A DNA stretch of 64,000 bases from Pseudoflavitalea sp. G-6-1-2. Lineage in GTDB: Bacteria > Bacteroidota > Bacteroidia > Chitinophagales > Chitinophagaceae. Numbering within the stretch: position 1 is the stretch's first letter; every line of letters begins with the position of its first letter. Below, in pieces: positions 37,459 to 42,889 of this stretch. The position numbers and the translations under genes were made by a program. The stretch spans positions 310,001-374,000 of the forward strand of contig NZ_JABBGB010000002.1 of NCBI RefSeq assembly GCF_012927185.1. The letters run 5' to 3'. Below the pieces are notes generated by a model. The model worked only from the letters and a program-made list of their open reading frames with translations. It ran no database searches and was not told the origin of the DNA.

Positions 37459-38721
37459 ATGTCAAAAAACCTATTCCTCCTGTGCTGCCTGTTTGTGACG
37501 CAGCATGGTTTCTCCCAGTCCCTGGATTTTACTGCCCTCCTGGACAGTGGAAAGGCAGAGTTCAAGAGACAGGCAGTAGCTGATTCACCTGATTTCTCCA
37601 ACGCTTATTCATTGCTGAGCCAGGCTGTAAAGAAACAACCCGGCAATACGGAAGGACGCTATTTTCTCGCGCATGTAATCGACAGAATCAACAGCAGTGA
37701 TGGCAAAGAAATGTACCTCAGCAAGAAGAGACTGACCATCGAAGCAAGCCAGCATCTCGAAGCCATCAATAAACTAACACCTTCTTACAGCGGTGAGATG
37801 TGGTTACTGGATCCCTACTCCAAAATCAGCGCTATCTGGAGTGGACAGGCAATGGCCTATCTGTATGCAGGCAAATCCGATTCCGCCATTTATGCATTCA
37901 GAGAAGGCAGGCAACGCGGAGGATTTATCAACCCAGTGCTGGATTATAACCGGCATCTGCTGAACAGCTGCCAGAAAAATGCTTTCCTCATCAGCTCCGG
38001 CGACATGGTAACTTTTCCATTGCTTTATTTGCAAAGCATCGAAAAACTCAGACCCGATGTAACTATCATCGATTGCAACCTGCTCAATACTGCCTGGTAC
38101 GTTAGATACCTCAATCAGAAGCAACACCTGAAACTCAGTTACAACAATAATGATATCGATACGCTGGTATACAAAGAGTGGACTCCCACCGAGGTAAGCC
38201 TCGCAGACCCTGACAATCCGGGCAATGGCATTAAATGGACGCTGCGCCCGACATACGGCGAAAGGTACGTTCTCAAAAGTGATCTGATGCTGCTGGATAT
38301 TTTAAAGCAAAACCTTCACAGCAGGCCGTTGCATTATACCACTGGTCCGGATACAACCAGCAGTCTTTTTCTGGATTCTTTCCTCCAACCGGATGGATTG
38401 CTCTTCACACTTGTAAGAAACGATGCTGATCTTGCCAGACTTGTTGAAGCTGCTCCCGGCAAACTGCAAACATATTCCATCGAAAAGATCAACGACGAAG
38501 ACATCAGAAAGTCGCAGGATGCAGTGTTCCTGCTCAACGAATACCGCAGAGCTTACCTCACCTGTATCGCTTATATTCATTCCAGATCTCAGTTTGCAAA
38601 TGCGATGAAACTGATGAATGAAATGGACAGGAAATTCAATGTAAACAAACTTCCCTGGTCTTCCGAACAGCAACAGCAGTACAGCGACCAGCTGAGGGAA
38701 ACGATCAGGAAACAGTTATAG
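37459..38721 (+). CDS. Exported TPR-like protein related to the DUF2723 tail
   Basis: The 420-residue product has a signal peptide (ending HGFSQ) and helical TPR-like repeats at both ends. The centre, SSGDMVTFPLLYLQSIEKLRPDVTIIDCNLLNTAWYVRYL, resembles the segment after the membrane domain of DUF2723 glycosyltransferase-like proteins (GDNDTFPLWY.QEVEG.RPDV...N.SLL...WY). Thus it looks like a soluble, periplasmic stand-alone version of that tail. Function unknown. The gene ends in a hairpin that overlaps the end of prfH on the other strand. Confidence 0.75.
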   Translation: MSKNLFLLCCLFVTQHGFSQSLDFTALLDSGKAEFKRQAVADSPDFSNAYSLLSQAVKKQPGNTEGRYFLAHVIDRINSSDGKEMYLSKKRLTIEASQHLEAINKLTPSYSGEMWLLDPYSKISAIWSGQAMAYLYAGKSDSAIYAFREGRQRGGFINPVLDYNRHLLNSCQKNAFLISSGDMVTFPLLYLQSIEKLRPDVTIIDCNLLNTAWYVRYLNQKQHLKLSYNNNDIDTLVYKEWTPTEVSLADPDNPGNGIKWTLRPTYGERYVLKSDLMLLDILKQNLHSRPLHYTTGPDTTSSLFLDSFLQPDGLLFTLVRNDADLARLVEAAPGKLQTYSIEKINDEDIRKSQDAVFLLNEYRRAYLTCIAYIHSRSQFANAMKLMNEMDRKFNVNKLPWSSEQQQQYSDQLRETIRKQL

Positions 38722-38744
38722 AAAAACATATTCCGGAGAAAACT

Positions 38745-38784
38745 ATCAGGGATGATCACAAAAGATCATCCCTGATTATTTTTA
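38745..38784 (+). terminator. Terminator overlapping the 3' end of prfH
   Basis: A perfect 13-bp stem (ATCAGGGATGATC/GATCATCCCTGAT, loop ACAAAA) with a following TATTTTTA serves the plus-strand TPR gene and contains the last codons of prfH on the minus strand. Confidence 0.75.
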
Positions 38785-39373
38785 CTTCATTGCCGCGCTC
38801 GAGCGAATCATGCTCCTGCCAGCGGCTCTGCTGCTGCATTACAAGCTGGCTTGTTTGCCAGGCCAGGTATTTTGCTTCAAGCCTTTCGAGACAAAGTTTT
38901 TTATTCTGATGTTGCGAACGGCTGTCCATCGCCAGCACCTGAATGCCGGATGGAATATGGATGCCACGCACAGCAGATTCTACCTTGTTTACGTTCTGCC
39001 CACCCGGCCCGGAAGCGCGGCAGGTTTCAAACCGTACATCTTTTTCATTCCAGGCCATCAGGTCTTTCACATCAAAGATCTCGATACCGGCGAACCAGTT
39101 CTTTCTTTTGTGAAACTTCCTGTAAGGGCTTTGTGCAATCCATCGGATAGTTCCCCGCCATTCCTGAACGAACGCCTGCATATTGCTGCCTTTGGCGAGA
39201 ATGGTGGCGGAATGCAATGTGCCTGAAATATCGCCAGGCATAGTTTCCAGCACTTCCATGTCGAAGCCCTGTTGACGCCCTTGTTTCAGCAGCAATTGCT
39301 GCAATTTGGCTACCACCCTGCAACATTCCGCAGGGCCGCGGCCCGAAGTAATTTGTATGATGATCTTGTCCAT
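38756..39373 (-). CDS. prfH: Release-factor homologue PrfH
   Basis: The 205-residue product is PrfH: an N-terminal domain starting IIIQITSGRGPAECCRVVAKL and a class-I release-factor domain with the GGQ loop RASGPGGQNVNKVESAVR (GGQ at 124-126) followed by SRSQHQNKKLCLERLEAK. It lacks the stop-codon-reading domains. PrfH is known to hydrolyse peptidyl-tRNA on ribosomes cut in the 16S decoding centre, normally together with the RNA ligase RtcB2 encoded next to it. Here no rtcB is present; an unrecognised basic protein gene precedes it by 11 bases. Confidence 0.92.
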   Translation of the reverse strand: MDKIIIQITSGRGPAECCRVVAKLQQLLLKQGRQQGFDMEVLETMPGDISGTLHSATILAKGSNMQAFVQEWRGTIRWIAQSPYRKFHKRKNWFAGIEIFDVKDLMAWNEKDVRFETCRASGPGGQNVNKVESAVRGIHIPSGIQVLAMDSRSQHQNKKLCLERLEAKYLAWQTSQLVMQQQSRWQEHDSLERGNEVKIIRDDLL

Positions 39374-39384
39374 CGTTTTGTTTT

Positions 39385-40119
39385 TTATGCTTCAGTGAGA
39401 TAGGCTTGCAGCCTGTCACTGAAAGATCTGTTTTTGTAAGGATCAATAACCGGTGGTTTCCCACATCTGCTATAGGTCCGTTTTTTACCTTTGGTTAGTT
39501 TGTTCAGTTTCTGCCGGAGATCGTAGTTTCGGATATGATTGTCCACCAGTTGCTTTTTACTCTCCAATACAGGATCTGCCAGCTGAACCTGTGTGATCAT
39601 GCGGGGTTGTACCACTAATACAAACCGCCATGGTTCAGAGAAAACGTAGTGTGTTACAAACCTGCGTTTCCGTGTGCACCAGCTGGTTCTGGGGTAAAAG
39701 AACTGTTTCTGTAAATCGGTCAGTTTACACTTTCCGCTCTTCCATCCATATTCATCGATCTCTCTGAGTGGCTGCGCAATTGAATATGTTTTTCTCCGGC
39801 GGTTTCTCTTCTTTGCCCGGAAGTCTTTGTCCCTGTTGAATTGCACGTTGTTGATTCTGCTGAGAATGGAAGAAAAGAAAGCAGCATGCTTGCTTTTTTG
39901 TACATCTTCTCTCAGCACATAGGTCCGGATCCAGCCGCTTTGATACGGTGTTTCCAAAGGCAAAAAAGGACGGTCCGACCATTGACGCCACAATTCATTC
40001 TGTAGTTTATCCAGCGCTATCAGCTGTTTTTCGCGATCCGTTTTTGCCCATCGCTTTCTGGTACGGGCAGACCTCAGCCTGTATCCCTGGAACTCATCGG
40101 TTCCATGATGTAAATGCAT
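39385..40119 (-). CDS. Unknown basic protein in operon with prfH
   Basis: I do not recognise this 244-residue protein. It is strongly basic (clusters RSARTRKRWAKTDREK, FRAKKRNRRRKTYS, KLTKGKKRTYSR) with several aromatic residues and three Cys, no signal peptide and no membrane helix, all consistent with RNA or ribosome binding. It ends 11 bases before the prfH start and a promoter lies about 230 bases upstream, so it is the first gene of a prfH operon. By position it takes the place normally held by rtcB2, which makes a role in ribosome repair or rescue a reasonable but untested idea. Confidence 0.75.
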   Translation of the reverse strand: MHLHHGTDEFQGYRLRSARTRKRWAKTDREKQLIALDKLQNELWRQWSDRPFLPLETPYQSGWIRTYVLREDVQKSKHAAFFSSILSRINNVQFNRDKDFRAKKRNRRRKTYSIAQPLREIDEYGWKSGKCKLTDLQKQFFYPRTSWCTRKRRFVTHYVFSEPWRFVLVVQPRMITQVQLADPVLESKKQLVDNHIRNYDLRQKLNKLTKGKKRTYSRCGKPPVIDPYKNRSFSDRLQAYLTEA

Positions 40120-40349
40120 GATTATTCAGTTGCAGTTGAAATACTGGCTGCATCCGGGTTTCATGCACAACGAAGCGTTCGTTCAGTCAGGTGCAACTAA
40201 TTGCATCCAATGCTGAATCCACGTTTTCTCCATTAACTAAAAGGAAATCCGGAGCAACCTATTGCTCGGTAGTGGGGTGTGATGATATGAAAGTATATTC
40301 TGTCATTGATTCCTTTGATTTATGTGTGAAAGAATAAAGGAATGCGATG

Positions 40350-40379
40350 CAAAATTAGATAAATATTTCAACCGGCAAA
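40350..40379 (-). promoter_or_regulatory. Promoter and long leader of the prfH operon
   Basis: On the minus strand TTTG (40379-40376) and TAATTTTG (40357-40350) are 18 bases apart, a Bacteroidota promoter. The leader to the ATG at 40119 is about 225 bases and contains a hairpin GAGCAA-N4-TTGCTC (40252-40267) and a few very short frames. The 40120-40485 gap holds nothing else besides the terminator at 40436. Confidence 0.5.
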
Positions 40380-40435
40380 ATAAGTGATGCAGAAATATTA
40401 TTGATGCATAATACTGAACCTGCTGAAAGCAGCAA

Positions 40436-40459
40436 GGGGACAGCCTTTCAGCCATCCCC
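40436..40459 (-). terminator. Probable terminator
   Basis: GGGGA/TCCCC with an inner GC pair encloses a 6-base loop, 26 bases past the SRPBCC gene stop at 40486; the minus-strand T-tract is weak. Confidence 0.5.
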
Positions 40460-40485
40460 ATGCTTACGCAGATAAAAAATCACTG

Positions 40486-40998
40486 CTATTTTGAAAACCT
40501 GTTGCTCATTCCCTGCAGGTAGCTGGCCATTTCTTTCCTCAGATGCGGAAGCATTTTTTCTTTATCGGCTTTGTTTCCCTGCATGATAACCCCGATATGG
40601 AATTCTGCCGTACAGCTTTCTTCCGGTGTGCGGATAACGAACATCAATGTACAATCTTTCACAGACGGCTCCATCGGCTCGCTCATTTTGAACACTATCA
40701 TTTTGTACTCAGGCTGATACTGTGTAACCATATCTTTTCGCTGAGTTCCATCGGTGAATTGTATGGTTCTTTTCTGATTCTCCTTCTCCCCTGTTACCTC
40801 GATCGACTGCACAAATCCGTTGCTGAATGCCGCCCATGCTGCCGGATCTTTAATGGCATCCCAGAGCGCTATAACAGACGTTTTGTATACAACGCCGGTA
40901 TCGATATCGAGATGTACTTTCTGTGCTGCTTCCATTTGCGCATTTGCCAGCGACGCAACAAACAAACATGCAGCAAACGCTGCTATCTTCCTGAACAT
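40486..40998 (-). CDS. Exported SRPBCC/polyketide-cyclase-like protein
   Basis: The 170-residue product has a signal peptide (cleaved near LANAQ) and a START-like fold: VVYKTSVIALWDAIKDPAAWAAFSNGFVQSIEVTGEKENQKRTIQF ... CTLMFVIRTPEESCTAEFHIGVIMQGNK and a long C-terminal helix (KMLPHLRKEMASYLQGMSNRF). The fold binds hydrophobic ligands; ligand unknown. It begins 27 bases after the stop of the TlpA-like gene, so the two are probably co-transcribed. Confidence 0.85.
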   Translation of the reverse strand: MFRKIAAFAACLFVASLANAQMEAAQKVHLDIDTGVVYKTSVIALWDAIKDPAAWAAFSNGFVQSIEVTGEKENQKRTIQFTDGTQRKDMVTQYQPEYKMIVFKMSEPMEPSVKDCTLMFVIRTPEESCTAEFHIGVIMQGNKADKEKMLPHLRKEMASYLQGMSNRFSK

Positions 40999-42421: not shown

Positions 42422-42889
42422 TCAGCGTTTGCTTATGAGGTCGTTGATGGCTTTCGCCATGCGATCGATTCGTGTAGATTCGTTCTTTGCAGAGAAGATG
42501 TATTCGATCATTGCTTTCTGTTCGCCATTCGACATTGCCCGAAAGGCGATATGAGCATCGGGTTCATCGGTTAGGCAGATAGCGAACTCTTCGGGCAGTT
42601 CCACCGGCATATTATCTTCGTACAATACTATGCGCACTTTGTCTCCCTCCTTCTTTTTGATCTGTTTTCTTATGGCAGCTTTCACGGGAAGAAAGAGTCC
42701 CCCTTTTCCATCGGGCATCAGATGGGCAGCCGTGAATGAAAAAGAATCGATGGTTCCGCGAACTCTCAGCAATCCAAATGCAGCCTTGCTTTTGGGGATT
42801 TCGGGAATGCGGGCGAAGGTCCAGCCACCTTTGCTCTGAAATTTTTCCAGTACATATTCCTTGTCAACGAGAGGAAGTTCTTTTTTCAT
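42422..42889 (-). CDS. DUF1905/YdeI-like protein
   Basis: The 155-residue product combines a DUF1905 beta-barrel (about 5-100: VLEKFQSKGGWTFARIPEIPKSKAAFGLLRVRGTIDSFSF ... LPVKAAIRKQIKKKEGDKVRIVLYED) and a short C-terminal YdeI/OmpD-associated helix region (FRAMSNGEQKAMIEYIFSAKNESTRIDRMAKAINDL). Both are widespread in Bacteroidota and of unknown biochemical function, sometimes named bacteriocin-protection protein. Cytosolic; monocistronic. Confidence 0.9.
   Translation of the reverse strand: MKKELPLVDKEYVLEKFQSKGGWTFARIPEIPKSKAAFGLLRVRGTIDSFSFTAAHLMPDGKGGLFLPVKAAIRKQIKKKEGDKVRIVLYEDNMPVELPEEFAICLTDEPDAHIAFRAMSNGEQKAMIEYIFSAKNESTRIDRMAKAINDLISKR

Follow-up and report, generated by a model that had tools for sequence, protein, structure and literature searches.

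The closest described relatives of the locus analysed here are the two-gene rtcB-prfH operons, as far as the passages used of PMC1586002 (2006) and PMC9223846 (2022) describe them. According to the same passages of the later paper, PrfH of E. coli releases the peptide when a ribosome has been cleaved in its decoding centre, and the chromosomal RtcB of E. coli failed to replace RtcB2 against colicin E3 (PMC9223846). A larger gene set around RFH-RtcB, consisting of TPR, NTase and ZnR proteins and a protein termed "highly charged", is listed in the sections considered of Burroughs and Aravind, 2019 (PMC6514570).

The window, a stretch of 64,000 nucleotides from Pseudoflavitalea sp. G-6-1-2 (genome label G000; family Chitinophagaceae), contains prfH together with a neighbouring gene that is called X in the following:

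38756-39373, minus strand, prfH, peptide chain release factor H (TIGR03072), 205 aa, GGQ at residues 124-126
39385-40119, minus strand, X, open reading frame for a basic protein of 244 aa from a Bacteroidota family accompanying RtcB

According to the ORF coordinates, X lies upstream of prfH with a spacing of 11 bases. The prfH product scored 244.3 bits with TIGR03072 (curated cut-off 166.65) and its GGQ motif is intact; coordinates, family and motif agree with the first-pass annotation of the pair at 38756-40119. The absence of a ligase noted there was reproduced with an RtcB profile built for this analysis, which detected no RtcB among the window ORFs of at least 40 aa. The prfH gene with its GGQ motif is the likeness to the RtcB2-PrfH module as the excerpts of PMC1586002 and PMC9223846 present it, and in the relatives of the window locus rtcB stands before prfH, close to it or overlapping with it. 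The window operon differs in that rtcB is lacking and X comes first. A further difference concerns the length of RtcB, which in the Bacteroidota operons is read as 463-502 aa (longest frame) as against 379 aa for RtcB2 of E. coli. With moderate confidence, we read the window locus as a reduced X-rtcB-prfH ribosome-repair operon in which X is accessory to RtcB rather than to PrfH alone, i.e., as an eroding variant of the RtcB-PrfH repair operon whose partner protein belongs to RtcB.

X was found by single-sequence search in 5 of 59 genomes, the window genome included, and by profile in 38 of 394 genomes of Chitinophagaceae and 12 of 395 genomes of a phylum sample, two of the latter being weak matches (G500 and G716, E 1e-5 to 1e-4). 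As the genome searches scored at most 6 or 7 candidates per genome, distant X may be missed, and the assemblies G338, G138 and G002 are less than 90% complete. A search of GTDB contigs with the single window X sequence gave no locus; an alignment-based query then gave 111, of which the best 80 were examined. These originate from Flavobacterium, Pedobacter, Mucilaginibacter, Taibaiella and MAGs, are rich in Flavobacterium and overlap with the genome set (L104 is G006, L118 is G002). Among mobile elements, no relative of X was found in IMG/VR (two peptide patterns), plasmids or phages (Flavobacterium X as query).

Among the best 80 of the 111 loci, 71 have rtcB as the gene immediately after X, in one case broken (L115), and prfH lies within 3.2 kb in 61 of these 71. 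The other nine have neither gene, and three of the nine end less than 3.2 kb after X. The gap between X and rtcB in these loci has a median of 3 bases, with an 11-base overlap in 16 of 70 (longest-frame starts). In Flavobacterium sp. DG2-3 (L050:7929-10103), X and RtcB form one frame of 724 aa, for which a lost stop codon would suffice and an assembly error is possible. For eight solo-X loci (seven Pedobacter, one MAG), two of which sit at contig ends (L106, L107), RtcB was present in all eight genomes tested. At the level of family genomes, RtcB was found in 37 of 38 with X vs 18 of 42 lacking it (Fisher 7.5e-8, with no correction for kinship; the 42 comparison genomes were chosen by label, mostly one per genus). 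X is therefore very probably a functional companion of RtcB. Since X goes with rtcB in this way and the window genome encodes two RtcBs outside the window (see below), the "ligase-independent partner" proposed in the first-pass annotation is not supported.

The 38 family loci differ in their arrangement. rtcB is present in the fetched stretch of 26 of them: seven have the order X-rtcB-prfH, one has rtcB-prfH with a degenerate X (G104), ten have rtcB adjoining X with no prfH beside (G338 at a contig end; rtcB first in G066), and in eight rtcB lies a few genes from X. rtcB was located about 6 kb (G391) and about 10 kb (G129) from X on the same contig in two genomes, while in five loci X occurs with an RNase H-like gene and no rtcB was seen nearby (G263, G381, G401, G283, G188). 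Neither rtcB nor prfH stands beside X in three loci (G002, G003, G137). X-prfH without rtcB was found twice, in the window and in G001, two species of one genus, which could be taken to mean that X works with PrfH alone there, as a rescue pair needing no ligase, where X makes up for what PrfH lacks, for example with a domain-1-like helical part. As 25 of the 38 family genomes with X have an RtcB and gave no prfH over the search threshold, we regard such a pair as most improbable.

prfH was identified in 30 of the 394 family genomes (E up to 1e-40). In 26 of these loci rtcB is located upstream of prfH in the same direction, the exceptions being G000, G001, G004 and G140. An intact X is present in nine of the 30, namely the window and G001 without rtcB and seven with rtcB; the 26 rtcB-prfH loci thus contain an intact X in seven cases and a degenerate X in one. 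In the phylum sample, prfH was found in 28 of 395 genomes. Outside the family, X lies near prfH in 11 of 26 phylum prfH genomes, 20 of whose loci were read while the other six were judged by coordinates (X within 3 kb); among the 20 read, rtcB is part of the operon in all and X in five. In these samples, prfH and X each often occur without the other, and prfH seldom occurs without rtcB. Two observations count against the reading of X as an accessory of RtcB: X is dispensable for the core operon, as most rtcB-prfH operons are without it, and X associates with prfH as well, which occurs in 12 of 38 family genomes with X vs 18 of 356 others (p 2.9e-6) and in all 12 phylum genomes with X. The recurrence of X beside prfH and rtcB in many genomes of several genera indicates that the pairing is more than chance; to this extent the first-pass reading is supported.

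Locus L226 (3998-10204) holds tandem divergent copies of X (profile E about 1e-4 to 1e-5), followed by RtcB, a Zn-ribbon-like protein, an NTase-like protein, PrfH and a TPR protein, where the Zn-ribbon and NTase labels were assigned by eye and have no Pfam match. Flavobacterium operons with X also carry ZnR-like (by eye) and TPR genes, so this wider set is shown by relatives and not by the window itself. Because L226 holds the same set, X probably corresponds to the "highly charged" accessory protein of Burroughs and Aravind (2019), the two being compared by description only; X fits that protein, as described in the sections considered, in its charge and in its lack of homologues among the libraries searched. 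The X family has thus probably been mentioned once in the literature. In the part of PMC6514570 considered, neither an X-RtcB pair lacking PrfH nor a fusion nor a second context is mentioned. In a search of the open-access literature, no title or abstract opening was about the X family, and the texts covered gave no description of the second context, the X-RtcB single frame, X without prfH or a model of X.

The genus of the window genome shows a graded pattern. X-prfH is present in G000 and G001, and G004 has prfH alone. G002 (640-contig assembly) has X and a 28-base prfH remnant that agrees with the end of the G001 prfH in 25 of 28 bases. In G003, whose genome is listed as 100% complete, X was kept (L018:6011-6772) and neither RtcB nor prfH was found; in G005 none of X, prfH and RtcB was found by the genome searches. 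That G003 keeps X with no RtcB found counts against X being accessory to RtcB. Trees were calculated with FastTree and midpoint rooted, using sequences non-redundant at 85% (X, PrfH) or 82% (RtcB). In the tree of X, the copies from the genus (window, L015, L016, L018) fall into a large clade (0.919) that also holds rtcB-prfH-linked X of Flavobacterium, Taibaiella and Mucilaginibacter, and in the PrfH tree the window and G001 PrfH lie among rtcB-linked PrfH (0.892); several inner nodes are weak, and the node with the genus X copies has 0.508. Because X and PrfH nest among RtcB-linked relatives and the loss in the genus is piecemeal, rtcB was most likely deleted from the operon in the window's genus. 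Deletion of rtcB followed by further loss would be the simplest account of the genus pattern.

The same piecemeal loss could mean that the window locus is a relic, i.e., an operon decaying after the loss of its ligase, with X and PrfH as leftovers without present function. The case of Mucilaginibacter gossypiicola, where the rtcB that separates X from prfH is broken and shortened (L115:8722-9490), fits such decay, and E. coli offers a similar case: of 5426 genomes, 1990 have one place that covers 80% or more of the truncated K-12 allele. However, the reading frames of X and prfH in the window are uninterrupted throughout, GGQ is kept, and the dN/dS values speak for constraint. For prfH, dN/dS is 0.09 between G001 and G004 (dS 0.58) and 0.13 between the window and G001, the latter at a dS of 2.03 and near saturation. 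For X, it is 0.19 between G001 and G002 (dS 1.74) and 0.08-0.12 in six further pairs, three from Flavobacterium and three of solo X from Pedobacter (Pedobacter dS 1.0-1.9), while the window-G001 X pair is saturated and its dN/dS uninformative. The relatives of X and prfH are under purifying selection, and we consider a functionless relic unlikely.

Returning to X as companion of RtcB, the protein itself has a pI of 10.42, with 54 K+R vs 24 D+E. The earlier description "strongly basic, three-Cys" holds for the charge and for the number of cysteines; however, the cysteines at 131, 148 and 219 are kept in 9%, 11% and 2% of the rows of the 66-row alignment A3 and are therefore not a motif of X. 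The 26 nearly invariant columns of A3 are mostly hydrophobic, aromatic or Arg/Lys and include R19, R23, K31, Q60, G62, W63, R65, W164, R165 and P172; acidic residues among them are E137, E162 and D182, and there is no His. An RNA- or ribosome-binding role, as suggested in the first-pass annotation, would fit the charge. Instead of serving as a repair adaptor, X could act as a regulator or could be a nuclease whose cleavage products are repaired by RtcB: it is conserved, basic and often first in the operon, and regulators do occur in some RtcB operons (in K-12, RtcR next to rtcB). The few acidic residues and the lack of His among the invariant columns argue against this, as does the single X-RtcB frame of L050, which favours a partner. 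Furthermore, constraint is seen in Pedobacter on solo X, which has neither rtcB nor prfH as a neighbour (dN/dS 0.08-0.11), and this makes an unopposed toxin unlikely. Overall, a regulator or nuclease is very improbable, if slightly less so than the ligase-free pair with PrfH.

For X, no Pfam or NCBIfam family was found above cut-off and no convincing match among PDB sequences (best E 0.4). Searches with X, PrfH and the L017 RtcB against the anti-phage defence profiles of PADLOC gave 0 families at E up to 0.01, and PHROGs gave nothing usable for X; a divergent member matched one lipoprotein family there at E 0.053. A weak Med14 match (E 0.093) was taken as noise. Archease is a small activator of some RtcBs, and X would likewise be a small protein partner of RtcB; the difference is that archease is not among the 24 Pfam families matched by any of the 66 X members (E up to 0.1).

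The AlphaFold model of X from 66 sequences (mean pLDDT 90.2, pTM 0.69) replaced an earlier one from 5 sequences (pLDDT 68). The predicted fold has a long, Arg/Lys-rich N-terminal helix (18-48), strands at 52-69, 141-148, 153-160 and 166-179, and C-terminal helices. Profile and structure searches, proposed in the first-pass annotation, thus yielded a confident model, yet no clear family or structural match: no entry of PDB or the viral structures was found at E up to 0.001 (Foldseek best E 0.21 in PDB, 0.13 in viral structures), and the fold searches gave no homologue of known function. In the structural search with VIA, where Z below 8 (for long helices, below about 13) may reflect no more than a common arrangement, class-I release factors make up five of the top 12 rows (1rq0_B with Z 5.0 over 64 residues at 3.6 A, 7oj0_8 4.5, 4v63_AX 4.3, 1zbt 4.1, 4v9n_AY 3.7). 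The chain ranges matched in them were taken as domain 1, a lead only, which would suit a role of X with PrfH alone. Against this, V-ATPase entries account for another five of the 12 rows, including the best (Z 5.2).

X also accompanies RtcB in a second context, which lacks prfH. An RNase H-like gene lies near X in 15 of the 38 family loci, in seven genera, this call resting on PF04308 for L138 and on phmmer matches to the L138 protein for the rest. The locus that represents the context is:

L138:2116-8465, second-context locus with SPFH/Band 7 gene; also L141, L146, L148, L149 and L152 (same genus)

In these six loci of the genus g93, genes for AAA, RNase H-like, X, SPFH, DinB-like and RtcB proteins stand in this order and are accompanied by a converging metallophosphoesterase gene; the SPFH match of L149 is a fragment only, because the neighbours leave too little room. 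Two loci of other genera have the order X, RNase H-like, AAA, SPFH, RtcB. Judged by its gene content, the AAA-RNase H-like-X-SPFH-DinB-like-RtcB locus is a candidate RNA-repair locus. The rtc locus of P. aeruginosa (PaFlo8, PMC13086221) likewise has an SPFH gene near rtcB, whereas the passage describing it names no X, AAA, RNase H-like or DinB-like genes, all of which the Bacteroidota locus has.

A look for rtcB elsewhere in the window genome, as the first-pass annotation had advised, revealed two RtcBs outside the window, one of 487 aa at C1:495120 and one of 394 aa at C1:1222525. In an alignment inspected by eye, the usual Asp, Cys and His positions look kept in both. Neither RtcB has prfH or X within the surrounding 12-13 kb, and the genome has a single prfH over the TIGR03072 cut-off, so an rtcB2 elsewhere with its own prfH copy, a refuting outcome named in the first-pass annotation, was not encountered. 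The 487-aa RtcB is 72-74% identical to the RtcBs of the second context and shares their metallophosphoesterase neighbour, while the RNase H-like gene of the window genome sits elsewhere with no X nearby. In the RtcB tree, a genus copy of 87% identity stands for the 487-aa RtcB and pairs with L138 (0.824); the wider clade around this pair (0.998) has X-linked members and no prfH-linked member. The 394-aa RtcB (L014:6157-7341) belongs to a distant subfamily common to G001 (74% identity), with 28-34% identity to the other RtcBs compared.

In the full operon, PrfH would release the peptide from ribosomes with a cut decoding centre, X would recognise or hold the damaged particle and RtcB would reseal the cut RNA. 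X is tentatively viewed as a basic RNA- or ribosome-binding adaptor that may bring RtcB to cut RNA, both the binding and the contact with RtcB being inferred. In the window's genus, where rtcB was most likely deleted from the operon and X and PrfH persist, the two probably use a ligase in trans, for which the 487-aa RtcB is the likeliest and the 394-aa RtcB the second choice. Such a ligase may not do, given that the chromosomal RtcB of E. coli did not replace RtcB2 in the passages cited (PMC9223846). A further-reaching version, in which X serves the RtcB ligases of Bacteroidota as a dedicated subunit for substrate targeting in two separate RNA-repair contexts and a general RtcB takes over the repair of cut ribosomes in trans in the genus, is rather doubtful. 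As X follows RtcB between operon types and is once joined with it in one frame, it is a concrete candidate for an RtcB targeting factor and makes the question of how RtcB ligases find their RNA testable. The window also cautions against taking a prfH with no rtcB next to it as a sure sign of a ligase-free system.

Two signals flank the gene pair:

40350-40379, minus strand, match to the Bacteroidota-type promoter pattern TTTG-N18-TAATTTTG, about 230 bases ahead of the X ATG
38745-38776, no strand assigned, terminator-like hairpin of 13 pairs over the prfH stop codon, common to the converging gene at 37459-38721

The pattern TTTG-N18-TAATTTTG, which we take to be the Bacteroidota-type consensus, has five matches in the window vs 1.53 expected, and 3 of 100 shuffles reach five. 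For this reason, an own promoter and long leader for the pair, as stated in the first-pass annotation, are plausible only. Within 38600-40700, three terminator-like sites were found vs 2.6 expected, and Rfam gave nothing at E up to 1. With no visible link to the pair, a gene for a protein with DUF1905 and OmdA (Pfam) lies near the locus at 42422-42889 of the window and is transcribed in the same direction.
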